DNA from: a virus | Direction: 5' to 3' (one strand) | Virus record (IMG/VR): IMGVR_UViG_3300021963_000220 | Location: 1-44,654 of that record | Length of the DNA stretch: 44,654 nucleotides | In this document: one piece after another, positions 8,791 through 43,196 of the stretch | Layout: every line of letters begins with the position of its first letter | How positions within the stretch are numbered: position 1 is the first letter of the stretch | Notes under the pieces: model-generated | Database searches by the model: none | Told to the model about the DNA's origin: nothing | What the model saw: only the letters and a program-made list of their open reading frames with translations | Made by a program: the position numbers and the translations under genes

Positions 8791-10071
8791 ATGAAAACAC
8801 TTTTAAACTATACAGAGTTCCTTATTGAAAAATGGAATCAACAATATCCAGACATTATCTTAGAAGGCGGAGCAGCAGGACACATGATGCACCCATTTGA
8901 TGATGAAACTCTTACATTTGGTGAAATCAAACACATTATTGATGGTGCTTTAGAAGGTCGTTTAGATTTCGAAGCGGCTCCTACTGAAAAAACAGACGGA
9001 CAAAATGTCTTTGTTACAGTTAAGAATGGTCAAGCAATGTTCGCTAGAAATAAAGGACAGATGAAACAACCAATAGATCTTAATGGAATCACACAGATGT
9101 TTCAGGATCATCCATCAACTGGCGTTAGAGATACATTTACGTTCGCTGCACAAGATTTGGCCAGTGCGCTGCAATCACTATCCGCAAAGGACCAACAAGA
9201 ATTTAATGATGGAACTTCATTTATGAATATGGAATTAATTTACTCTGGTAATTCAAATGTAATCGCTTATGGTAAAGATGTTATTCAATTTCATGGTATG
9301 GTTCACACCGATGGAGAAGGTAACCAAACAGGCTCAGACTCTAAATTAGCTGGTAAAATAACAAACGCACTAAAATCAGTTAATTCACACGTACAAAAAA
9401 CATTTGAAATCATTCCACCTCAGGAATTACAAATAGGTAAATCAATTGACTTTGAAGAAAAGAAAGGTTATTTCTTAAATAAGGTTAATGTTTTACAAAA
9501 AAGATATAACTTACAAGACACAGATCCAGTTTCTAAATATCACGCGATGTGGTGGAAAGAACTTATAGATAAAGACTTTTCAAAATTAGATGAAATTGAT
9601 AAAGCAGGCTTAGTACAAAGATGGGCATTCAATGACAAGAAAACTTTAAATATTAGAGATCTTGCAAAGAAAATGGATCCAACAGAATATAAAGCATTTC
9701 AAAAATTTGATAAAGAAGACTCAGTTAAAAAATTTAAAGAAAACATTTTACCATTTGAAAACTTATTCTTAGAATTAGGTTCAGTGGTGTTAAAGAATGT
9801 TTCTAATCTTTTAGTTGCTAATCCAGCTCAAGAAATGCAAAGACTACATACACAAATTAAAACAGAGGCCGATAAAATCAAACAAAACGGAGATTTAACT
9901 CAATTAGCTAAAGTAGAAAAAGAATTAGCTAGATTAGATTCTATCGGCGGTATTGATTCTATCGTACCTTCAGAAGGCTTAGTTTTTCAATATAAAGGTA
10001 AATTATTTAAGCTTACTGGAACATTTGCTGCCATTAATCAGCTTATGGGTATTATAAAATACGGAAGATAA
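8791..10071 (+). CDS. Ligase-like nucleotidyltransferase with capsid-targeting-like N-terminus
   Basis: The 426-residue protein has motifs of the covalent nucleotidyltransferase (DNA/RNA ligase) superfamily. Motif I is EKTDGQN with candidate nucleophile Lys67. MFARNKGQ follows about 15 residues later, NMELIYSG resembles motif III, and SEGLVFQYKGKLFKLTG near the end fits motifs IV and V. The N-terminus MKTLLNYTEFLIEKW resembles a capsid-targeting peptide and is followed by a clean prohead-protease site, ILE|G after residue 25. This suggests it is packaged and injected. Residues 28-36 (AAGHMMHPF) resemble a segment I recall from cyanophage proteins of unknown function. Substrate (RNA or DNA) is unknown. 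It is followed by a second ligase-like gene with its own promoter. Confidence 0.6.
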   Translation: MKTLLNYTEFLIEKWNQQYPDIILEGGAAGHMMHPFDDETLTFGEIKHIIDGALEGRLDFEAAPTEKTDGQNVFVTVKNGQAMFARNKGQMKQPIDLNGITQMFQDHPSTGVRDTFTFAAQDLASALQSLSAKDQQEFNDGTSFMNMELIYSGNSNVIAYGKDVIQFHGMVHTDGEGNQTGSDSKLAGKITNALKSVNSHVQKTFEIIPPQELQIGKSIDFEEKKGYFLNKVNVLQKRYNLQDTDPVSKYHAMWWKELIDKDFSKLDEIDKAGLVQRWAFNDKKTLNIRDLAKKMDPTEYKAFQKFDKEDSVKKFKENILPFENLFLELGSVVLKNVSNLLVANPAQEMQRLHTQIKTEADKIKQNGDLTQLAKVEKELARLDSIGGIDSIVPSEGLVFQYKGKLFKLTGTFAAINQLMGIIKYGR

Positions 10072-10093
10072 ATAAAATAAATCTATAAATATT

Positions 10094-10123
10094 TTCATAT
10101 ATCAAATAGATTTAGTATATTTG
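10094..10123 (+). promoter_or_regulatory. Bacteroidota-type promoter for the ligase-NMNAT gene
   Basis: TATATTTG (10116-10123) matches the TAnnTTTG -7 box exactly, with TTC (one base off TTG) 19 bases upstream at 10094-10096. The ATG is 19 bases downstream behind an A-rich leader. It is the best host-type promoter in the window. Confidence 0.6.
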
Positions 10124-10142: not shown

Positions 10143-12023
10143 ATGGCATTACAAAAATTAAGAGATTTTTATCAAGGTACGAATCCCAATACATTTAACG
10201 ACATGTTAAAGTCAAGAGTTGTTGTAACTGAAAAGATTGCAGGAGCTTCATTTCATGTTAGAAGAGCAATGGAAGGTTTTGAGTATTTCAAATCTGGAAA
10301 TAACGAAGCTATGAATATCATAGATAGAACGTTAACTTCAGTATATGAAAATGCAATTAAACACTTTCAAAGTTTAACATTAAACGAGAAAAATCAAATG
10401 CCAAGTGATTGGAAGTTTGGATTTGAATATTTACCAGAAGCTAATATGTCTTCTATTGAATATGATTCAACGCCTTTCAATTTTATGATATTAACGCACA
10501 TTCAAGTTTTAGGAACTAATGGCAAAGCTAAAAAGGTTTTAACAGATCCTAAGGTTCTAAAAGAATGGGCACAAAAACTACAAGTACAAGGACCATCAAT
10601 CATTTTTGATGGCATGTTAAATGAGGATCAAAAGAGAAATTTAGTGACATTACTTTCAATGTCAAACGAATCATACGCTAAAAGATTTGGAAATGAAGCG
10701 TTCACCAACCACATTTACAAATTATTTAATCCAGGAGCTTATAAAACCATTTTAAATGAAGATTTAATCAAACCGATTGATGGTTTAATAGTCTCTTTCG
10801 TAGATTCAACACAAATTAAAAGTTTTAAATTAGAAGAGTTTAAACCAGCTAATGAAGCTGAAACTTCCAACAGAGAAGCAAGTCACATGTATCAAATTAC
10901 AATGGTTGATTTGCTAGAATTCTTTTCAACAGTAGACCTAGATAGTATTGAGCTTTTAGAAACAGCTTCAGATAAAAGATATATTGAGTTGATTTCAGCA
11001 ATGTACAATTCGTATGTTAAAGAAAATGCTACTAAATATGTAGGAGTTGATTTTGGAGCAGCTGATTTTTCTAAATCTGCATTATTCAATATCAATACAA
11101 AATACATTGACAACGAAAAGACATTAGAATATTTAGACAATCCAGTTTTAGCTGAACTTTATAAAATCATGCTAAGCTCTTTTTCTAAAAAGAAAATAAA
11201 AGAATCTGCATTGTTAAATTCAAATATCTTAGAACAATTAAATCAGATTATTGATGTAATTGAACAAAAAGTATTTGTAGAAAACGCAGATGAAAATGCA
11301 ATTCACAACTTCAATAATTTCTTAATGCACAATAAGATTTCTGCTAGTAAAACTAACATGAACGAAGCATTAAAAATTAATTATTCAGAACAAGGTAAAG
11401 AAAAAGTAAACATGTTTGTTGGTAGATTCCAACCATTTACTCTTGGACATGCTAAAGTTTTAGAAACAATCCACAAACAAAATGGTTATCCAGTCGTAGT
11501 ATTTTTGGTTAAAGCTGCAAAGGCTCAAAAAGACGATGCCGTTAAAAGACCGTTTGATACAGAAACACAAATTCAAATGTTTATGCAAGTGCAAAAGCAA
11601 TATCCTTTCTTAAAAGAGATTTTTGTAATTCCATCAGCTGGTATCGATTTGATGTTTAATGAAATGAGACCTAAATATGAACCAGTTTTATGGGGAACAG
11701 GCACAGATCGTTTCAAAACTTATGGCTATCAAGTAAACAATGACAAATATAGAGATGAACTTGGTGTTTTACCAGAGTTTGGTTTATATGAGATCAAAAG
11801 AGACGATGAAGATATTTCAGCAACTAAAGTTAGAGAAGCTTTATTAGCTAATGATAAAAAGACTTTTGATAAAATGACACCTAAAGCGTTAGGTCCTTTA
11901 TTTAATGAACTTAAACAAAAGTTAGAAACTTCATTAAAAATTTCAGAAGCTATTGAAACAGAAGCAAGTACGGATGTATTAACTTTTGAACAATTTAAAT
12001 TAAATACTAATATTATTAAATAA
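10143..12023 (+). CDS. RNA ligase fused to an NMN-adenylyltransferase-like domain
   Basis: This 626-residue protein has two enzyme domains. The N-terminal part reads as an RNA ligase: motif I EKIAGASF with nucleophile Lys31, FGFEYLPEAN (motif III-type), PIDGLIVSF (motif IV) and IKSFKLEEF (motif V). From residue 424 a Rossmann-type nucleotidyltransferase begins with FVGRFQPFTLGHAKVL, the GRFQPxxxGH signature of NadM/NadR-like NMN adenylyltransferases. It ends near ISATKVREAL, matching their ISxTxxR motif. The middle third (about 240-410) is helical and unassigned. The end, LTFEQFKLN, recalls the FEQF of the cargo N-termini. A host-type promoter lies upstream. Roles in RNA repair, NAD synthesis or both are possible. 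I know of no such fusion in T4. Confidence 0.72.
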   Translation: MALQKLRDFYQGTNPNTFNDMLKSRVVVTEKIAGASFHVRRAMEGFEYFKSGNNEAMNIIDRTLTSVYENAIKHFQSLTLNEKNQMPSDWKFGFEYLPEANMSSIEYDSTPFNFMILTHIQVLGTNGKAKKVLTDPKVLKEWAQKLQVQGPSIIFDGMLNEDQKRNLVTLLSMSNESYAKRFGNEAFTNHIYKLFNPGAYKTILNEDLIKPIDGLIVSFVDSTQIKSFKLEEFKPANEAETSNREASHMYQITMVDLLEFFSTVDLDSIELLETASDKRYIELISAMYNSYVKENATKYVGVDFGAADFSKSALFNINTKYIDNEKTLEYLDNPVLAELYKIMLSSFSKKKIKESALLNSNILEQLNQIIDVIEQKVFVENADENAIHNFNNFLMHNKISASKTNMNEALKINYSEQGKEKVNMFVGRFQPFTLGHAKVLETIHKQNGYPVVVFLVKAAKAQKDDAVKRPFDTETQIQMFMQVQKQYPFLKEIFVIPSAGIDLMFNEMRPKYEPVLWGTGTDRFKTYGYQVNNDKYRDELGVLPEFGLYEIKRDDEDISATKVREALLANDKKTFDKMTPKALGPLFNELKQKLETSLKISEAIETEASTDVLTFEQFKLNTNIIK

Positions 12024-12028
12024 TAAAA

Positions 12029-13165
12029 ATGGCACAAACGCACGGAGACATTAGAGCAAAATTTGCTAGTCAATTAAATAAAAACGAAATGTTTAGAGCA
12101 ATAGATGAAGCTGCAAATGATTCACTAAATGGAGAAGTAAATGCTCCAGGTTCTCAGCATCGTAACATGGTTTTAATCGATCAAATCAAAAAGAATGGTA
12201 AAATTCAAGATTATATAAATTTTGCATCTTTGTACCCTAATGGACAAGCATCTGCAGCACTTATTAATTTTATAGCTAGTTTAAATCCAAAAGATTCAAT
12301 TGAATTAGCAAACAGTTTAGCTTCTTTAAAATCTCCAAGTGAATTAACGATTTCGATGTATTCAAATAAAGGTAGTGTATTAGGTAGATTATTCGATTGT
12401 ATTCCTTCGAGAGGTTTAGGTCGTGGAGAACCATTAATCGCATGGATGATTAAAGGTGCTGAAATCCAAGGTGGTAGTGAAAGCTTTGACGTTAAAATCG
12501 GTAAAGATAGATACGAAGTTAAAGATTATTCAGGACAAGGAAATGCAGCTATTTTAGCAGGTGTTCGTTCTAAAGTAAGTAACTTTGAATTCTGGAAAGA
12601 ATTAGTAGATACTCTAAGAAGACTTGATAAACTAACAGGGTTTTCAACACGTTCTAAATTTGATGTATCTTTATATTTTACACCAGAGTTAGTATCGTCT
12701 ATTAATGCTTTATTAAATAGACAACATGTTATTTTATCAGGAGAATGTAATCTTTCTGATTTAGCTAATTTTAGAAATTTTTATCAACAAGCTAGTCAAA
12801 TTCAAAATTTCATGCACGGCTACACTAATGTTATTTTAAGAGGTCCAAATGTAAAACCAATTGAATTAAGCATTGATTTATTAGATCCATCTGATGTTTC
12901 TGGAGATACAATCACATTCCATATTGCTAAAGCAGATCAAACAGATACTTATGTTTTATCAGAATTAAAGCGTTTAAAATACGTTAGAAATCCAAAGGAC
13001 TTAGATAATGATATGCAAAAAGCAGTTGATCAAATCCATGCAGGTTTAACATATATCGTATTTAGAAAGGATGCTATTAATGTAACAACTGATTTTGTTC
13101 CAACTGCAATTTCAATTTCAAGTTTAAAATTTGTTGAAAGAAGCATTAAAAATCCAACAGAATAA
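12029..13165 (+). CDS. Putative PD-(D/E)XK nuclease-like protein
   Basis: This 378-residue protein starts five bases after the ligase-NMNAT gene. Its centre has the spacing of a restriction-endonuclease-like fold: GRGEPLIAW (Glu134), then SFDVKIGKDRYEVKDY with Asp154, Glu163 and Lys165, a D-x8-ExK core. The N-terminal 110 residues are helical. The C-terminal half includes a beta-rich part (VILRGPNVKPIELSIDLL). Such folds also occur in non-cutting proteins, so activity is not certain. Its place directly after two ligase-like genes suggests a cut-and-rejoin partnership or host-genome attack, but this is inference. No capsid-targeting-like N-terminus is seen. Confidence 0.5.
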   Translation: MAQTHGDIRAKFASQLNKNEMFRAIDEAANDSLNGEVNAPGSQHRNMVLIDQIKKNGKIQDYINFASLYPNGQASAALINFIASLNPKDSIELANSLASLKSPSELTISMYSNKGSVLGRLFDCIPSRGLGRGEPLIAWMIKGAEIQGGSESFDVKIGKDRYEVKDYSGQGNAAILAGVRSKVSNFEFWKELVDTLRRLDKLTGFSTRSKFDVSLYFTPELVSSINALLNRQHVILSGECNLSDLANFRNFYQQASQIQNFMHGYTNVILRGPNVKPIELSIDLLDPSDVSGDTITFHIAKADQTDTYVLSELKRLKYVRNPKDLDNDMQKAVDQIHAGLTYIVFRKDAINVTTDFVPTAISISSLKFVERSIKNPTE

Positions 13166-13205: not shown

Positions 13206-15455
13206 ATGAATTTTCAAAACTTTCTTAACGAGAAATATAGCAAAGATGACATCAATACAGCGTATGGCTTCTTTGGTACTATGGAAGATGCACATAATGA
13301 AAAAATAGCATACGAAATATTTGATGCAGCTGTTAAAGACTTGATGAAAGAATTTGGTCTTAAAGATGTTGAAGCTGTAGCTTTATTAAATAGCAAAGCA
13401 GGTAGACAAGCAGCTGATGCAATTATTGCAGGAGAATGTGAAGATAGTGTTGTTGCAGGAATGTATTGGTACTTTGGCAAAAACAACAAATCAAAAATTG
13501 TTAGTGCTGCTAAAAGTGCAATTAGTGAATCTAATGAATTAGATGAAGCTTCTAAATTTGGAGCTCCAGCTGGTTTAACTAAAGCTCAAACTAAAAAGGT
13601 TGCAGAAACTTTAGCTAAAGCAATGTCAAAGGCTGATAATGCTAAAGTGACAGTTAATCTTAGAACATTAGAAGAAGATTCATTTGATTTAGATTATGAT
13701 GGTGAAGAATATGACGGTGGTTCATATAATATTTACGATGACGGTTCTGTCGTTAATCATGCAGTAACACCTAATGAAATTTATGGAACTTCTGATTCTT
13801 CAGTTGAAGATTTTATTAAAGGTTTAAAAAAGCCTATTAAAGAATCATTCTTAGATGCTTATGATGAAAATTCAGAAGAATTAGATGAATCATATTCAAA
13901 TGATTTTGCATCTTGGTTTACAGGTACTTCATTAAATGATGTTAAACATCCAAAATATGGAAATCACAAAGTAACGCCAGATCAAATTAAAAATGCGCCG
14001 GCTGATTACAAAAATAAACTTTTTAAAGCTATAGAAAAGGCAATTAAATCAGGTGATATTACAAATGACATGATTAAAGCCAATGAATCTTTAGAGATTA
14101 GCGAATCTAAAATTACTTTAAAAAGAAGATATACAGAAAGTTATCCAGCTAAAACAACTGGAAAATATGCTGCTGTTAGAAATAAAATCATCGAAGCTTT
14201 AAAAGACGGTGAATTAACTAAAGAAGAATTTGACACTTTAGTTTCTGGTTTAACAGAAGATTCTAAAAGATGGTTAAGAAGAAATTCAACCTTCTTTAAT
14301 ATACAAGAAGATAAAGTTGGTTTAACAAAATCTGGTCAAAAAATAGCAGCTGCTCTTTTTCAAGCGGAAGATGTTAATAGCAACTTAAAAACAAACGAAA
14401 ATAACAATACAAATATGAAAACTAAATTCATTTATGAATCATTTTCTGAATTCGTTAATTCAATTGATGAGTCTTTTGAATTAGTTTCAGAATCATTTAA
14501 ATCATCTATGTTAGCTGGTTTATTTACAAGACAAGGTACATTCGATGCTAGTTTAGCAAAAGCTTTTTATGGAGCTACTAAATTAAAATTAGATCAAATC
14601 GAAGATGAAGATTTAATTAGTACAACACCAGCTTTAGCATATAAAAACAAATTAGAAAGTTCTATCGTTTTTTATATCTCTGATGTAGAAAAACCAAATA
14701 CTTATGCACCAGCAGACACTTACTATGCAAGTAAAACTATTCCAGGTGAAGGCTATTTATTAGCCGTAGCTTCAGGAGATAATAAATTCTATGACAATGT
14801 TTGGACTGGTGGAAGATGGGACAGAAATGCTAAAAATAGAACATTAAAACAAGTTGATAACAATCCAAGCGATTCAATCGGTATTAATAAAAAATACAGC
14901 GGATGGGAAGCAACAGGACTCTACAATGTTAAAAGAATTTCAGAAGTAGCTGATAGAGCAATCGTAATCAATACAACTTTATTAAGACAAAAATATTCAG
15001 CAGAAGCTCAAAGAGCAGATAGAGCTGCAGCTAAAAAAGGTGCAATTGCATTTAAATCAGATAAAGATTTTAAAGCTGAAAACATGGCAAGATATAATCA
15101 AATCATTGCTCAGAAAGCCACTCAAATGCCAATGGACAGTTTAGTTTCAAAAGCAATCGAAAGAATGTCTGAACAAATCAAAGACGGTTTAGCTAAACAA
15201 ACTAAAGGGCGTTATGGCGAAATTATCGTAGGTACAAATGCAAAAGGCGCTGAAGCTAAATTAGCAGATGTTGCTAATCACATGCAACGTATCTTAGATG
15301 ATTATTCTGGATATGTTCGTGTTGTTGCACAGCAAGAAGATTCAGTTGCTAAATATGGAGAAGCAGAGTCTTGGTATAAAAGAGAAGTTGAACAAAAAGC
15401 AAAAGAACTTAAAGATAGACTTGATAAAATAGAATCATTCTCTTATATCTGGTAA
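13206..15455 (+). CDS. Large internal polyprotein-like protein with repeated protease sites
   Basis: The 749-residue protein begins MNFQNFLNEKYS, resembling a capsid-targeting peptide with LNE at residues 7-9. The first 423 residues hold many consensus prohead-protease sites: ISE|S (after 108), LDE|A (114), IKE|S (213), LDE|S (228), ISE|S (300), IYE|S (411) and IDE|S (422). None is evident in residues 423-749. Met404 opens a second capsid-targeting-like peptide (MKTKFIYESFSEFVNS), so the gene looks like two cargo genes fused. The last 320 residues contain SSIVFYISDV, YYASKTIPGEGYLL and a long C-terminal helix. No catalytic motif was recognised. I infer packaging and cleavage into several peptides plus a roughly 327-residue C-terminal protein. 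Confidence 0.6.
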   Translation: MNFQNFLNEKYSKDDINTAYGFFGTMEDAHNEKIAYEIFDAAVKDLMKEFGLKDVEAVALLNSKAGRQAADAIIAGECEDSVVAGMYWYFGKNNKSKIVSAAKSAISESNELDEASKFGAPAGLTKAQTKKVAETLAKAMSKADNAKVTVNLRTLEEDSFDLDYDGEEYDGGSYNIYDDGSVVNHAVTPNEIYGTSDSSVEDFIKGLKKPIKESFLDAYDENSEELDESYSNDFASWFTGTSLNDVKHPKYGNHKVTPDQIKNAPADYKNKLFKAIEKAIKSGDITNDMIKANESLEISESKITLKRRYTESYPAKTTGKYAAVRNKIIEALKDGELTKEEFDTLVSGLTEDSKRWLRRNSTFFNIQEDKVGLTKSGQKIAAALFQAEDVNSNLKTNENNNTNMKTKFIYESFSEFVNSIDESFELVSESFKSSMLAGLFTRQGTFDASLAKAFYGATKLKLDQIEDEDLISTTPALAYKNKLESSIVFYISDVEKPNTYAPADTYYASKTIPGEGYLLAVASGDNKFYDNVWTGGRWDRNAKNRTLKQVDNNPSDSIGINKKYSGWEATGLYNVKRISEVADRAIVINTTLLRQKYSAEAQRADRAAAKKGAIAFKSDKDFKAENMARYNQIIAQKATQMPMDSLVSKAIERMSEQIKDGLAKQTKGRYGEIIVGTNAKGAEAKLADVANHMQRILDDYSGYVRVVAQQEDSVAKYGEAESWYKREVEQKAKELKDRLDKIESFSYIW

Positions 15456-15485: not shown

Positions 15486-16004
15486 ATGAAACACATTCAA
15501 TTATTCGAACAATTTATTAACGAAGCTAGAGCTGAAGTTAAATTAGGTAGAGTGACACCTAAAAACATAGATGAAAAGGCACAACAAGTGTTAGAAGTTT
15601 TACAAGACGCGGTTGGTAAAACTATCAACGGAGAAGAACTTAAAAAAATGGTTGGTAGAAACTGGGGAGGTCCAGGTGCAAGTAAAGGTCTTAAAAATGC
15701 TAAAATTGAAATTATTGCAGTTCACGTAGGACATAACAATAGCTATATTTCTATGCAATTTATATATAAGACTGATTCAGATTTATTCGATAACCACGCC
15801 GAAGGTAATCAAAAATTAAAAGATCTTGAAGGTTGGGCCAAAGTAGCAGACGGTATGCGTTCTATGAAAGCAATTGACGGTAGTAATAAAGAATATAAAA
15901 GCGATGCATCGCACCAAGTCAAAGAACTTGTATTTAATAGTTTAAGTCCTAAAAACTTAGAAAATGCATTATCTATTTTAAAATTAGGTGATATTATCCT
16001 ATAA
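15486..16004 (+). CDS. Putative packaged internal protein with capsid-targeting peptide
   Basis: The 172-residue protein begins MKHIQLFEQFINEARAEV. This closely matches the style of T4 internal-protein targeting peptides and carries a consensus cut site, INE|A, after residue 13. The same N-terminus, with small changes, starts the gene at 29205 (MKHIKLFEQFIDES). The mature part is mixed alpha/beta (KIEIIAVHVGHNNSYISMQFIY) with no recognised active site. I infer targeting to the head core, cleavage by the protease encoded at 43258, and injection with the DNA. The gene starts 30 bases after the large polyprotein-like gene. Confidence 0.65.
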   Translation: MKHIQLFEQFINEARAEVKLGRVTPKNIDEKAQQVLEVLQDAVGKTINGEELKKMVGRNWGGPGASKGLKNAKIEIIAVHVGHNNSYISMQFIYKTDSDLFDNHAEGNQKLKDLEGWAKVADGMRSMKAIDGSNKEYKSDASHQVKELVFNSLSPKNLENALSILKLGDIIL

Positions 16005-16018
16005 AATAAAACACAAAC

Positions 16019-16465
16019 ATGCCAGCAAAATCAAAAGCACAACAAAGATTAATGGGACTAGCTTATTCAGTTAAGCAGGGTTACATGGATATTGCTCAAG
16101 TCGGTGCAGAGTATAAAGATAAAGTTAAAGAACTTGTTAATTCAATGAGTATCGAACAACTTAAAGATTATGCTACTACGCCACATGAAGGTTTACCAGA
16201 CACTGTAGAATCAGACTCAAACGAATCTATGGGTTTTGCAACTGGTTCGAGCGGACCGCAATCTATTGGAATGCCAGGTATGGGTATGGGCAAAATAGCT
16301 TTGCCAGATTTAGGCACAGGTGCTGTTGGTTCTGGAGATAAACCATCCGGTAGAGGTGATGCCGATGATGAATACGAAAAAGAAAAGAAGAAGAAAAAGA
16401 AACGCGAGAAAAAGCTAGCGAAATCATACGAATCTTTTATTTTCGAAAAGTATGGAAAGCTTTAA
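16019..16465 (+). CDS. Small protein with MPAKSKAQQR N-terminus and lysine-rich tail
   Basis: The 148-residue protein begins MPAKSKAQQRLMGLAY, a start I recognise from small conserved phage and bacterial proteins of unknown function. A glycine/methionine-rich flexible middle (IGMPGMGMGKIALPDLG) follows, then a strongly charged segment ending in a run of lysines (about 121-136). The last residues, SYESFIFEKYGKL, resemble the FEQFIxE targeting peptides but lie at the C-terminus. It closes the cargo block and is followed by a strong terminator. A DNA-binding or packaged role is possible; nothing firmer can be said. Confidence 0.55.
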   Translation: MPAKSKAQQRLMGLAYSVKQGYMDIAQVGAEYKDKVKELVNSMSIEQLKDYATTPHEGLPDTVESDSNESMGFATGSSGPQSIGMPGMGMGKIALPDLGTGAVGSGDKPSGRGDADDEYEKEKKKKKKREKKLAKSYESFIFEKYGKL

Positions 16466-24907: not shown

Positions 24908-26326
24908 ATGCTATTAGACATTGAACAAAGAGAGAAGGAAATTATAGTTTCATATTTCAACAAAGAAGGCACAGTAGATTTTAAACGTTATCCAATAACA
25001 CAATTTAAAAATTGGTATGTTTGTGATCCTAAAGAAGCTGGTGCTAGTCGAGATTTTAAAAACTGGGATGGACGTTCAGTGAAACTTTCACAAGCTAGAC
25101 AATTTAATAAATTTTCATTAGTTTATTTTATGGATGGCTTACCAGAAAAAGACAAAGAAGTTATTTACGAATACAATTCACCTAGAACATATTTCGTCGA
25201 TATTGAAACTGAAATTGTCGATGGCTTTCCAAAGGCCGAAGAAGCTAAATCAAGAATCTTAGCTTTTTCTATAGTTACACCAGACAAAAAGGTAATCGTA
25301 TTAGGTTTAGAAGACTTAGAGTCTGATAAAATTAAAAAGATTGAAGATGACACTAATGAATACATGAAAAAATTTGGTGATGAGTGGACCTTTCAATATA
25401 TTAAATTTAAAACAGAGTATGACATGGTTTATACTTTCGTTTATAAATTTATGCCTAAGTTTCCTATGATGACTGGCTGGAACTTCATTAACTATGACTG
25501 GCAGTATATTGTAAATCGATGTAAACATCTACAGATCGATATAGTTGGTTCGTCCAGGACAGGATCATTAGATCCAGAAGACAGTAGACCATTACACATG
25601 GGAATTCTAGATTACATGCAGCTATATGACAAATACGATAGATCTGTTAAAGTAAAAGAGTCAAACTCTTTGGATTACGTTTCTAGTCAAGTATTAGGTA
25701 CTAACAAGATTAAATTCACAGGATCATTACAAGATTTATATAGAGATAACTTTACTAAGTACATCTACTATAACGTAATTGACTCCATCTTAGTTTATTA
25801 CATTGATAAAAAATTAAAATCAATGGATGTACTTATTACTCTTGCATCTATTACAAAAATGCCATTATATAAAGCAGCTTCACCGGTAGCAGTAACTGAA
25901 GCCTTGATTGCAAGAAAAATTGCGTCTGAAGGTAAACGTATTGGAACTGAAGCCAGAGAAGATAATAAAAAAGAAGGTCAATTTGCTGGAGCATTTGTTA
26001 AAGAGCCTATCGTTGGTTTTTATGAAGGAGTAAGTGCATTTGACTACGCTTCACTATATCCATCTATTATGAGGCAGTTTAATGTTTCTCCAGATGCTTT
26101 TATCGAAAAGGTGCCATCTTCTAAAATAGAAGAAAGACGTAAAGATAAAAATGTTATTGTTTGTGAAAACGGAGTTGTTTATAAAAACGAAGATTCTATT
26201 CTTAAAAAAATATTATCAGATCTTTATTCACAGCGAAAAGAGTATAAGGGAATGTCCTATGAATATTTTCACAAAGCAGAAGAAATAAAAAAGAAAATAA
26301 AAGCACTTGAAAAAGCAGGTCAATAA
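24908..26326 (+). CDS. gp43A: DNA polymerase, N-terminal part (exonuclease plus motif A)
   Basis: This 472-residue fragment of a family B polymerase covers the N-terminal domain, 3'-5' exonuclease and first part of the palm. Exonuclease motifs are FVDIETE (Exo I), GWNFINYDWQYI (Exo II) and YNVIDSILVYY (Exo III). Motif A is SAFDYASLYPSIMRQFN, matching T4 TSLYPSIIRQVN. The frame ends in the fingers helix region (LYSQRKEYKGMSYEYFH) with a short helical extension, before motif B. The remainder is encoded separately at 30520-31716. Both halves carry all expected motifs, so the pair is probably an active split enzyme. It begins one base after gp56. Confidence 0.92.
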   Translation: MLLDIEQREKEIIVSYFNKEGTVDFKRYPITQFKNWYVCDPKEAGASRDFKNWDGRSVKLSQARQFNKFSLVYFMDGLPEKDKEVIYEYNSPRTYFVDIETEIVDGFPKAEEAKSRILAFSIVTPDKKVIVLGLEDLESDKIKKIEDDTNEYMKKFGDEWTFQYIKFKTEYDMVYTFVYKFMPKFPMMTGWNFINYDWQYIVNRCKHLQIDIVGSSRTGSLDPEDSRPLHMGILDYMQLYDKYDRSVKVKESNSLDYVSSQVLGTNKIKFTGSLQDLYRDNFTKYIYYNVIDSILVYYIDKKLKSMDVLITLASITKMPLYKAASPVAVTEALIARKIASEGKRIGTEAREDNKKEGQFAGAFVKEPIVGFYEGVSAFDYASLYPSIMRQFNVSPDAFIEKVPSSKIEERRKDKNVIVCENGVVYKNEDSILKKILSDLYSQRKEYKGMSYEYFHKAEEIKKKIKALEKAGQ

Positions 26327-29175: not shown

Positions 29176-29183
29176 TATATTTG
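29176..29183 (+). promoter_or_regulatory. Bacteroidota-type -7 box (TATATTTG)
   Basis: An exact TAnnTTTG box 21 bases before the ATG at 29205. The -33 position has TTT instead of TTG. It follows a terminator, which supports a real promoter here. Confidence 0.55.
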
Positions 29184-29204
29184 TATATCAAAAACAACAA
29201 AATT

Positions 29205-29633
29205 ATGAAACACATTAAACTATTTGAACAATTTATTGATGAATCCAACGACATGTCTCTTCAATCCGCAGCTGGAAATGGAAGATCAATTGGAAGATAT
29301 AATGGACCTACTGGTGCTTCTGCAGAATGGAAAGATAACCAAACTGTTATTTCAAATAAATCAGAGTATTCTACTGAAATTCTAACAAATGCTGCATCGG
29401 CATTAAGAGATCTTGGTATTCAAGTAAAAGAAAAATCAATACAAGATGGTATATTAACAACTGAATTCGGAGGCTCAACGTGGACGTATCAATTTAAAAG
29501 TGGTAAATGGACTGCTACCGTTACAGATTCTAACGGTACTGCAGAAGCCCCAAAAGACATTTATGAATTTATCAGATTTATGGTCGCGCGAAAATATATA
29601 AAATTTAAAGATAAATTAGTAGGACGTAAATAA
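29205..29633 (+). CDS. Putative packaged internal protein between the polymerase halves
   Basis: The ATG at 29205 is chosen. The frame stays open to a TTG at 29181, but that lies inside the promoter box. The 142-residue protein begins MKHIKLFEQFIDES, nearly the same targeting-type N-terminus as the gene at 15486, with a consensus cut IDE|S after residue 13. The rest is mixed alpha/beta (GILTTEFGGSTWTYQFKSGKW). It has its own promoter and terminator, so it forms an independent unit within the nrd-clamp segment. I infer a head-packaged, injected protein. Its mature function is unknown. Confidence 0.65.
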   Translation: MKHIKLFEQFIDESNDMSLQSAAGNGRSIGRYNGPTGASAEWKDNQTVISNKSEYSTEILTNAASALRDLGIQVKEKSIQDGILTTEFGGSTWTYQFKSGKWTATVTDSNGTAEAPKDIYEFIRFMVARKYIKFKDKLVGRK

Positions 29634-29770: not shown

Positions 29771-30520
29771 ATGAAAGTAGTTATTAACAAAGTAGATCAG
29801 AACAACTTTGTAGCATTCATTAATCGTTTAAGAGTTATTGATTCTTTTGTCTATTTCAAAATTAAAGACGAACAAATCATCTCTTCAGCTTATTTGCCAC
29901 AACGTGACGCTGTAAAACACCACACGCTTCCAATTTCAGAAGTATTTCAAATTGATGCTAGTCAATTAACAACAGACAAAGACCTTAAAGTGGCTTTCTT
30001 TGATGCTGGTAAAATTATCGAAGCATTCAAACAATTTGAATACGATTCTATTCAAGCAGAAATTGAATTCGTAGAAAACGATGAAGACTGTGTAGCTTCT
30101 ACATTTAAAATCTTTAATGACGAGTTAGAAATCGTTTTAGCTTGTTCAGAACCATCTTTAGGTTACAAAGACTTAACAGAGTCTCAATTACAAAATATCT
30201 TCATGACTGAAGGTGCTGAAGTTAACTTTGATTTATCATTCACTGATACATCTAAGATTAAATCTCTTTTCAACTTAGATAAAGATGAGACTTTTGCAAT
30301 TTCAACTTCTAAAGAAGGTGTTCGTATTAAAGGTAAATCTTACAACAAATTAATCAATTCAACTAGCGTTTCTAAGGCTAATGTGACTGTTTACAAAAAG
30401 TATTTGAACTTGTTTGACAAAGAAGATTATTCTACTTATGTCTTTAACAATAGAGTAGTTTTACGCTCTAAAGACTCAAACACTCTTTTAACAATCGCAA
30501 CTTGCCAAAGCACTGATTAA
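29771..30520 (+). CDS. gp45: Sliding clamp gp45
   Basis: The 249-residue protein (T4 gp45: 228) has the repeated beta pattern of a trimeric clamp. ETFAISTSKEGVRIKGKSYNK parallels T4 DTIAITVKEGKIVINGFNK, and an acidic, strand-rich N-terminal half precedes it. It tethers the polymerase and, in T4-like phages, also activates late transcription through gp33 and gp55. Its TAA shares a base with the ATG of the polymerase C-terminal half, so clamp and polymerase half are translationally coupled. Clamp-loader genes 44 and 62 are not in the window. Identity rests on weak similarity plus strong context. Confidence 0.72.
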   Translation: MKVVINKVDQNNFVAFINRLRVIDSFVYFKIKDEQIISSAYLPQRDAVKHHTLPISEVFQIDASQLTTDKDLKVAFFDAGKIIEAFKQFEYDSIQAEIEFVENDEDCVASTFKIFNDELEIVLACSEPSLGYKDLTESQLQNIFMTEGAEVNFDLSFTDTSKIKSLFNLDKDETFAISTSKEGVRIKGKSYNKLINSTSVSKANVTVYKKYLNLFDKEDYSTYVFNNRVVLRSKDSNTLLTIATCQSTD

Positions 30521-31716
30521 TGACTATTGAACAACTACTTAATAAACCAGAAGACCAACTAACTTTGGTTGAGCTTAAATCCTTAGCAGACTTTTATTCA
30601 AACGAGTCTGCTAAGTTTACAGCTTATGAACAAGCAGTTAAGTTAACACTTAACTCGATCTACGGAGCCTTTGGTAATAAGTGGTTTCACTTCTTTAATA
30701 TTGACATTGCTGAATCTATTACTTTACAAGGTCAAAATGCAATCTTATATTCCGAAAAGATACTTAATAAGTACTTTCAAGAATTCTTTGTCAAAGATAC
30801 TAAAATTCATGAAGAATTAAATATCAAAGTTAAAAGAGCTTGCGTTAAACCGGCTGTAATTTATATCGATACCGATTCTAATTACGTCCAATTTCAAGAG
30901 ATGTACGAATCTATCGAGTGGTTAGGTGAAAAACTAGACATTGTAACGTTTATTCTTAAACTTTACAATTTACGTATCAAAGATTATATCGTTAAGTCGC
31001 TAGACAAATACGCTGAAAACAGAAACACTGATTCATTTTTAGAATTTGAATTAGAATCTATTGCATACTCAGGTATTTGGATGGCTAAAAAGAAATACTT
31101 GCAAAATTTAGCGTGGGACGATAAACTTGGCGTAAACGAAAGACATGCAATGTTAAAGAAGATCAAAACCATCGGTTATGATACTATTCAATCTTCAACA
31201 CCAATGTTTGCTCGTAAGAAACTATCAGAAGCTTTACAGATTCTTTTTGAAAAGAAGCCAACCCCAGAAACTTTAACAACTATTGTTTCGTTTCTTAAAA
31301 AGGCAAAGAAAGAATTTAAGTTAGCGCCGATAGATGAAATCTCTTTTAACAAGAGAACAAACAATTTAGAGAAGTATATTGTAGATGATCACGTTGAGTT
31401 TCAATATGGACTAAAATGTCCACCTAACGTTAAAGCTGCTGGATTTTATAATTACTTAATGAATAACAATCCTAAGTATAAAAACAAATACAGAATGATT
31501 GGTAATGGTGAGAAGCTAAGATTATTCCATTGTGAACACAAGACATGTGAGATCTTTGCATATTTGCCAGGTGATCATCCTTATGAATTTGCACCAGCCG
31601 TAGATTATGAAACTCAATTTGAAAAATCAGTAATTGATCCATTGAATAGAGTTTTAGGCTGTATTGGTCTTCAGACATTAAACAGAAACTTAATTTATTC
31701 AACTTCATTATTTTAA
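30520..31716 (+). CDS. gp43B: DNA polymerase, C-terminal part (motifs B and C, thumb)
   Basis: This 398-residue half completes the family B polymerase. After a 38-residue leader with a helical start comes motif B, VKLTLNSIYGAFGNKWFHF (T4: KILINSLYGALGNIWFRYY), then motif C, IYIDTDSNYVQF with the catalytic DTDS. The KxKKY element follows (WMAKKKYLQNL), then IGYDTIQSSTP (T4: GMETQQSSTP) and the thumb. The end, FEKSVIDPLNRVLGCIG...STSLF, parallels the T4 end, with its clamp-binding SLDFLF tail. It must pair with the fragment at 24908-26326 for activity. No homing endonuclease or inverted intein signs flank it. Confidence 0.93.
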   Translation: MTIEQLLNKPEDQLTLVELKSLADFYSNESAKFTAYEQAVKLTLNSIYGAFGNKWFHFFNIDIAESITLQGQNAILYSEKILNKYFQEFFVKDTKIHEELNIKVKRACVKPAVIYIDTDSNYVQFQEMYESIEWLGEKLDIVTFILKLYNLRIKDYIVKSLDKYAENRNTDSFLEFELESIAYSGIWMAKKKYLQNLAWDDKLGVNERHAMLKKIKTIGYDTIQSSTPMFARKKLSEALQILFEKKPTPETLTTIVSFLKKAKKEFKLAPIDEISFNKRTNNLEKYIVDDHVEFQYGLKCPPNVKAAGFYNYLMNNNPKYKNKYRMIGNGEKLRLFHCEHKTCEIFAYLPGDHPYEFAPAVDYETQFEKSVIDPLNRVLGCIGLQTLNRNLIYSTSLF

Positions 31717-42794: not shown

Positions 42795-42818
42795 TAAAAT
42801 AAAATGAATACATATAAT

Positions 42819-43196
42819 ATGAAAAAATTAATTAAAACATTCGAACAATTTATATTTGAAGCTGAGGCCGTTAAGGCAGAAGATTCAGATGTTTATATCG
42901 ATGATGTATCGGCTGATGGTTCAGACACTGTAATTAAAGCTGTTGAAATTTTAGGAGCTATTAAGGCATCTGCAACAGAAAAAGAATTTAAAGACTATTT
43001 CTTTCAGCAATATGGCCAAACTACTTTAGCACCAGAAGATATGGCTAAACTTTGTAAATATTACAATGAATACAAAGAAGAAGAAAACAAAGAAAAGGCT
43101 GACTCTGAAAAAGAAGGTGAAGATGAAACTTCTACTGAAGAAGATCCATTAGCAGGTTTAGACACAGATTTACCAACAGGAGAAGACGGAAAATAA
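42819..43196 (+). CDS. Acidic prohead core protein (gp67/gp68-like position)
   Basis: The ATG at 42819 is preferred to the in-frame one at 42804 because it gives MKKLIKTFEQFIFEAEA, a capsid-targeting-type N-terminus with a consensus cut, IFE|A, after residue 14. The 125-residue protein ends in a very acidic tail (EEENKEKADSEKEGEDE). T4 places the small core proteins gp67 and gp68 at exactly this spot, between portal and protease. gp67 likewise has an acidic tail. It probably helps shape the scaffold core and is degraded or cut during maturation. Confidence 0.68.
   Translation: MKKLIKTFEQFIFEAEAVKAEDSDVYIDDVSADGSDTVIKAVEILGAIKASATEKEFKDYFFQQYGQTTLAPEDMAKLCKYYNEYKEEENKEKADSEKEGEDETSTEEDPLAGLDTDLPTGEDGK

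Follow-up and report, generated by a model that had tools for sequence, protein, structure and literature searches.

An RNA ligase 2-type fold fused to an NMN adenylyltransferase-type domain in T4-like marine phages, encoded next to a second ligase-fold protein and possibly associated with the virion

Introduction

The protein considered here, the product of gene B of a marine phage, joins two parts whose closest described relatives are separate. Its residues 1 to about 380 have the same fold as T4 RNA ligase 2 (Rnl2, gp24.1), including the C-terminal helical domain, and carry motif I on the same strand-loop. Unlike T4 Rnl2, B is fused to an adenylyltransferase, and the nucleophilic lysine and the motif IV and V residues are not conserved in its family. 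Rnl2-family ligases use ATP, not NAD. The other part of B is, by both profile and fold, the same adenylyltransferase domain as in archaeal NMN adenylyltransferases (NMNAT) and in NadM, the bifunctional NMN adenylyltransferase/Nudix hydrolase. Like NadM, B has a two-domain design with a partner domain and occurs in large phages, but the partner is an N-terminal Rnl2 fold instead of a C-terminal Nudix domain, and the HxGH motif starts with Thr.

In phages, NadV with NadM or NadR forms an established NAD salvage pathway (PMC9503650). NAD+ salvage through NadV/NAMPT and NMNAT has been proposed to counter NAD depletion, as is likewise proposed below for B. The phage NMNAT fusions described in the consulted parts of PMC9503650 and PMC7824862 are to Nudix or kinase domains, and no fusion to an Rnl2 fold is named there; a word search of one literature library found no NMNAT/RNA-ligase fusion. 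The link of an NMNAT-type domain to a ligase-fold domain is new, the kinds of component being already known.

Concerning packaged proteins, the T4 internal proteins IPII, IPIII and Alt are the model for the packaging and ejection that are proposed below for the product of gene A, the neighbour of B. A and other proteins encoded nearby share the motif [FY]xxF[IL]xE with IPII and IPIII, whereas their mature domains are unrelated to those of the T4 proteins. Known T4 targeting sequences are N-terminal. In the capsid-targeting sequence with which IPII and IPIII start, packaging is directed by the aromatic residues 4 and 7 and processing by residues 8 and 10 (PMC9026906). The cyanophage 'cytidyltransferase' or NMNAT-like virion protein (T4-GC190) has an adenylyltransferase domain homologous to that of B, adjoins a ligase-like gene in several cyanophages and has a capsid-targeting-like motif; in contrast to B, it is not fused to a ligase fold, and its motif is N-terminal rather than C-terminal. 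Published proteomics detected such NMNAT-like proteins in virions of cyanophages S-SM1, S-CREM2, S-SCSM1 and others, co-purification not being excluded by the authors themselves (PMC3037559, PMC10665884, PMC9602691).

Results

The fusion gene and its neighbours

The window (the whole stretch analysed, 44,654 nucleotides, IMG/VR record IMGVR_UViG_3300021963_000220) is a fragment of a marine T4-like phage genome, as indicated by PHROG matches to UvsW, gp32-like SSB, primase, DNA polymerase, NrdA/B, DnaB-like helicase, SbcC-like nuclease subunit, tail tube and portal. The genes of interest are the following:

8791..10071, plus strand: gene A, a second RNA-ligase-fold protein, 426 aa (conserved catalytic motifs, structural matches)
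10143..12023, plus strand: gene B, fusion of an Rnl2-fold domain and an NMNAT-type adenylyltransferase, 626 aa (ORF, homologues, structure)
12029..13165, plus strand: gene C, 378 aa, resembling PD-(D/E)xK nucleases in its motif FDV...YEVKD (sequence inspection)
13206..15455, plus strand: gene D, 749 aa, N-terminal motif FQNFLNE (motif scan)
15486..16004, plus strand: gene E, 172 aa, N-terminal motif FEQFINE (motif scan)
16019..16465, plus strand: gene F, DUF3008 protein, C-terminal motif YESFIFE (Pfam PF11450 at 3.8e-10, motif scan)

Gene B is uninterrupted from ATG to stop. An earlier note, made from the letters alone, had placed two sets of motifs in one chain, and all four motifs are indeed found in this single ATG-started frame: EKIAG (residues 30-34), PIDGLIVSF (211-219), GRFQPFTLGH (427-436) and ISATKVR (558-564). 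Its naming of the domains, an Rnl2-type ligase and an NMNAT-type adenylyltransferase, was correct at the level of fold, with matches far beyond chance (PF01467 at 7e-9, TIGR01527 at 8e-9, Foldseek to T4 Rnl2 at 4e-8). That both sets are intact holds for the adenylyltransferase motifs and not for the ligase motifs, which are partial in the window and not conserved across the family. The fusion is no assembly accident, because relatives share its start position. The database search for the same fusion that had been suggested in the note, run as a degenerate-pattern scan of IMG/VR, reported 237 relatives encoding it; the fusion is widespread in T4-like marine phages. Loss of catalytic residues or a wide distribution with a known simple role had been named as speaking against the proposal; relatives do lose catalytic residues and the fusion is widespread, while no simple role is known for it.

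The explanation that we prefer, judging its chances to be evenly balanced, is that B would be a virion-associated NMN adenylyltransferase with a degenerate Rnl2-fold binding domain, acting together with A.

Terminal motifs and a possible virion association

The motif [FY]xxF[IL]xE was counted six times among the 47 window proteins, every time at a terminus. It is N-terminal in five of them, against 0.13 expected in shuffles, namely A, D, E and the ORFs at 29181 (29181-29633) and 42804 (42804-43196), and C-terminal in the product of gene F alone. The ORF at 42804-43196 lies directly after the portal gene, which is the position of T4 gp67, and it also contains TFEQF. D, E, F and the products of these two ORFs, otherwise unrelated proteins, provide a candidate list of packaged proteins. 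The elements found in A and B are:

8809..8829, plus strand: YTEFLIE, a capsid-targeting-like motif close to the N-terminal end of A (motif [FY]xxF[IL]xE)
11979..11996, plus strand: short C-terminal motif TFEQF of B, after a variable linker (homologue comparison)

In most A homologues a motif of the YTEFLIE type is followed by hhhE-GGAAGHM (hydrophobic-x-Glu before GGAAGHM). The C-terminus of B has [LM]TFxx[FY] in 48 of the 51 homologues listed, many of them closely related. If N-terminal aromatic residues plus a processing glutamate are taken as the mark of capsid targeting, A has the motif and B has only the C-terminal TFEQF, without the Glu of the processing site. Four cyanophage homologues examined (about 390-405 aa) have this motif or a closely similar one at their N-termini.

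It is possible, if somewhat unlikely, that A and B are not packaged and would be intracellular proteins of NAD salvage or counter-defence, the [FY]xxF sequences serving as docking sites for some other phage protein. The motif of B, unlike known capsid-targeting sequences, is C-terminal, and the established NadV route shows that phages do salvage NAD. Against this reading, the motif is shared with T4 IPII/IPIII and with the post-portal protein at the gp67 position, and the cyanophage homologues have been reported in virions. On this analysis, the A-B pair looks like virion cargo, not like a self-contained 'ligase plus NAD supply' enzyme.

Concerning the time of expression, gene B had been credited with the best host-type promoter of the window and, from this, with likely early expression. 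The site in question is:

10092..10121, plus strand: promoter-like site upstream of B, matching 9 of 12 positions, not better than chance

The promoter claim was rejected, since 10 of 12 positions are matched by six sites within the first 15 kb and the scanned region contains fewer promoter-like sites than its shuffled versions (54 versus 71.5 ± 9). Early expression is unsupported by the promoter scan, and the terminal motifs, together with the cyanophage virion proteomics, point to a virion-associated protein.

The C-terminal adenylyltransferase domain and NAD supply

The domain and its two characteristic motifs are located as follows:

11388..11942, plus strand: NMNAT-type adenylyltransferase domain, residues 416-600 (Pfam, PDB profile, structure)
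11421..11450, plus strand: nucleotide-binding motif GRFQPFTLGH ([HT]xGH); G, R and H in every domain-bearing homologue
11814..11834, plus strand: ISATKVR motif; S and R in 37/37, T in 35/37

All the homologues that have the domain retain GRFQPFT.GH and ISAT.VR with minor variation; B has the nucleotidylyltransferase fold with [HT]xGH and ISxxxR by which an NMN adenylyltransferase is recognized. Besides the match to PF01467 (CTP_transf_like), the profile search against PDB gave MJ0541 at 5e-9, and residues about 420-598 were superimposed on the archaeal NMNAT 1ej2 with Z 15.1 and rmsd 2.6 over 153 aligned residues. The VIA-align matches listed for B were filled by this domain. With TIGR01527 (archaeal NMN adenylyltransferase) the score was 35.2 bits against an equivalog cut-off of 181.2, which it does not reach, and NMN specificity is for this reason a best guess only. 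Moreover, B has Thr in place of the first His of HxGH, and folds of phosphopantetheine adenylyltransferase (PPAT) are matched too, at Z about 13; because of these two points, NMN would be the likeliest substrate, though an unproven one.

A 256-kb near-identical phage (L009, G001), whose B is 99% identical to that of the window, shows what may accompany the fusion in a larger genome. It encodes a 489-aa NAMPT-family protein (PF04095 plus NAMPT_N; the NCBIfam name is nicotinate phosphoribosyltransferase) and two canonical RNA ligases, of DRB0094 type (8e-58) and of T4 Rnl1 type (3.5e-18). A second PF01467 protein of this phage looks like a sugar-nucleotide cytidylyltransferase, and no NMNAT-type enzyme besides B was found in it. 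From the NAMPT-family gene and the other ligases it follows that B is a plausible salvage NMNAT, RNA sealing being provided by other genes. The pairing of a NAMPT-family gene with an NMNAT-type domain is like that of the NadV/NAMPT and NMNAT salvage systems; in contrast to these, the two genes are not adjacent in the 256-kb phage, and NAMPT is not shown in the window. A 429-kb relative has a nicotinate phosphoribosyltransferase (NAPRT) gene close to a NadM-Nudix-like gene. Altogether, NAMPT or NAPRT genes were found in two of ten contigs (these two) and not in the other eight, many of which are incomplete.

These data bear on a reading that we consider doubtful, with still an appreciable chance of being right, in which B would adenylylate something other than NMN (a modified nucleotide, a small molecule or an RNA end) and the Rnl2 fold would be a nucleic-acid-binding arm. 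NMNATs are the best matches of B by both sequence and fold, and the closest large relative combines a NAMPT-family gene with no other NMNAT-type gene found, which argues against another substrate. In its favour count the Thr of HxGH, the PPAT matches, the scores with NMNAT models, all far under the strict cut-offs, and a group-wide G-x-D-R stretch (WGTGTDR in the window, GGDRV in cyanophages, GSDRIG in phage X1).

The N-terminal Rnl2-fold domain

The ligase-like features of B are:

10143..11282, plus strand: N-terminal Rnl2-like region, residues 1-380, nucleotidyltransferase plus helical C-terminal domain (Foldseek, weak PF09414)
10230..10244, plus strand: motif I EKIAG, residues 30-34, with putative nucleophile K31 (homologue alignment)
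10425..10427, plus strand: motif III glutamate E95; E 33, Q 8, N 1 among 42 sequences
10776..10796, plus strand: motif IV region IDGLIVS, residues 212-218; acid retained in 36/42
10812..10832, plus strand: motif V region QIKSFKL, residues 224-230; K226 in 16/42, K229 in 25/42

In the AlphaFold model of B (mean pLDDT 81), the N-terminal part matched T4 RNA ligase 2 (2hvr_B) in Foldseek with probability 1.0, the alignment running over 361 columns against a 319-residue chain, so as to include the full Rnl2 fold with its C-terminal domain. No convincing Pfam, PHROG or NCBIfam family was found for this domain in the window protein. PF09414 (RNA_ligase) left the window protein unmatched and hit weakly 5 of 35 homologues (best 0.0019, 18.8 bits versus a cut-off of 27). 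The fold match and these weak hits are the reason why the domain name is right at fold level. As the hhalign comparisons of B with T4 Rnl2 and of B with A were not significant, the relationship to Rnl2 is carried by the fold match.

The ligase motif columns were assigned from collinearity and AlphaFold secondary structure, rather than from an inspected superposition. In the model, K31 comes after the first strand, E95 is on the motif III strand, D213 is just before strand 214-221, and K226 and K229 are on strand 224-230. It is worth noting that E30, beside the putative nucleophile, is invariant, while the K31 column contains among 42 sequences K 31, Q 5, N 3 and D 3, and the G34 column G 21, A 18 and S 3. 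In the window protein itself, motif IV has D instead of E and S218 at the K/R position, and motif V has one clear Lys. Ranked by conservation among the 390 columns of a 35-sequence alignment, K31 is 111th, G34 213th, D213 156th, K226 288th and K229 171st. In the B N-domain alignment, 19 other columns and the start Met are invariant, including E30, D61, Y68, W90, F92, Y107, P111, K131, Y280, N289, Y291, N318, K341 and N367 (35 sequences). On a maximum-likelihood tree, the state of the nucleophile Lys has to change three times, and well-supported branches impose two of these changes. The B family is therefore a case of an RNA ligase fold that is retained while its nucleophile is repeatedly replaced and, since the ligase positions drift and other columns are invariant, the domain is retained in much of the family for a role other than ligation through Lys.

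Four huge phages (634-735 kb) encode the N-terminal domain on its own, the nucleophile Lys being replaced by D or N:

L012 5929-7269, L013 5971-7269, L014 5935-7296, L015 5857-7179: stand-alone Rnl2-fold domain in huge phages

In three of these four phages, adenylyltransferase genes are located elsewhere.

The catalytic motif set of an Rnl2-type ligase is partly present in the window and not conserved across the gene B family, and because of that lack of conservation B is not classed here among the active RNA ligases. The candidate assignment of B as an intact RNA ligase was rejected at the family level, on motif conservation. The window copy might nevertheless keep some residual ligase activity, as judged from its retention of Lys and Gly in motif I, of E95, of the motif IV acid and of a motif V Lys.

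The neighbouring ligase-fold protein

Gene A lies directly upstream of B and had been overlooked in the earlier note. Its model (pLDDT 82) has as best structural matches RNA ligases of Naegleria and fungi and T4 Rnl1/Rnl2, with moderate Z values of about 7-8 (top 8.3), and all 50 structural matches listed are ligases or capping enzymes. The ligase fold is accompanied by the KxDG, RNK, E, EGxVF and KLTG positions: E66, K67, D69, G70, R86, N87, K88 and E148 are present in 30/30 homologues, and E395, G396 and K407 in 29/30. No Pfam or NCBIfam family was found above cut-off for A, whose family is uncharacterised, and its PDB profile search gave no relevant match. A homologue of A was not found in the four largest huge phages, in a search run without a positive control. 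Since its catalytic columns are kept in 29-30 of 30 homologues, A is a control, from the same genome, for how the ligase motifs have eroded in B. As predicted from these residues, A is the ligase-type enzyme of the A-B pair, RNA being a putative substrate.

It is quite improbable, in our estimation, that B is a bifunctional enzyme with an active Rnl2-type RNA ligase and an NMNAT, by which RNA repair would be coupled to NAD supply. Eleven of 42 homologues have Q, N or D for the Lys, half of the 42 have Ala or Ser for the motif I Gly (Ala in L022 and L007, the nearest relatives of the window B), the basic residues of motifs IV and V drift, and the near-identical phage has canonical RNA ligases elsewhere; all this outweighs that the window chain has K31, G34, E95 and D213 and the full-length Rnl2 fold with its C-terminal domain. 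The earlier suggestion that one chain couples the healing of RNA ends to the supply of NAD is thus weakened by the unconserved ligase site of B, the conserved site of A and the two canonical ligases of the 256-kb phage. It had been supported by the statement that ligation uses ATP or NAD; Rnl2-type ligases use ATP, so that a chemical coupling of this ligation to NAD does not follow.

Discussion

Returning to the preferred explanation, B as a virion-associated NMN adenylyltransferase acting with A, its steps can be proposed as follows. Through their terminal [FY]xxF motifs, A and B probably enter the core of the prohead, and both packaged proteins would be ejected with the DNA. The dinucleotide that the C-terminal domain of B would make is most likely NAD+, formed from NMN and ATP. 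The N-terminal domain of B, a family-wide degenerate ligase that may have been retained for binding rather than sealing, probably binds RNA or adenylate, or holds the adenylyltransferase against protein A. In the first minutes of infection, the ejected proteins would increase NAD+ and would act on nucleic acid of the host or the phage, either ahead of defences that deplete NAD or cut RNA, or in opposition to them. Of these points, the fusion, both folds, the motif patterns of the adenylyltransferase, of the ligase region of B and of A, and the gene order are seen in sequence or structure; NMN as the substrate, the binding role of the N-domain, the partnership of A and B, their packaging and its purpose are inferred. 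That the packaged pair is a putative RNA-modifying machine delivered with the genome, which would rebuild RNA ends with A or make NAD-capped RNA after transcription (the Rnl2-fold arm holding the adenylyltransferase domain on an adenosine-started RNA, whose 5'-triphosphate that domain would attack with NMN), seems to us very improbable.

The cyanophage virion NMNAT-like proteins, repeatedly met without explanation, may hereby join a wider module of T4-like phages, composed of an adenylyltransferase and one or more ligase-fold proteins, sometimes in one fused chain. The gene order uvsW-G-A-B is conserved in most of the loci long enough to reveal it, and a D-like gene and a DUF3008 gene usually come after it. 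Fusion of an adenylyltransferase in front of A is seen in Microcystis phage Mel-JY01 and in huge phage LR756508, while in several cyanophages and marine virus AG-345-P14 an adenylyltransferase comes after a ligase-like gene with KWDG and a gene whose motifs are nuclease-like; these arrangements in the cyanophages, Mel-JY01 and LR756508 are repeated associations of the same parts as in A and B. In L079-L082 and L087 the B chain is extended C-terminally, the extension of L087 resembling gene C by eye:

L079 6001-9369, L087 6001-8829: B homologues lengthened to 942-1122 aa by a further domain, C-terminal to the adenylyltransferase

Gene C itself gave no Pfam, PHROG or NCBIfam match, and it is replaced or absent in many relatives.

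A scan of genome contigs for cellular homologues gave a single contig, of a Flavobacteriaceae MAG (L115), which is possibly viral; for that reason no cellular origin or spread is argued. Its adenylyltransferase region is 52% identical, and it may be a host hint or a binned viral contig. As to the rest of the window, the T4-type DNA polymerase is encoded by two separate genes, at 24908-26326 and 30520-31716 (halves of PHROG 262), with a distance of about 4 kb and with nrdA and nrdB between them.
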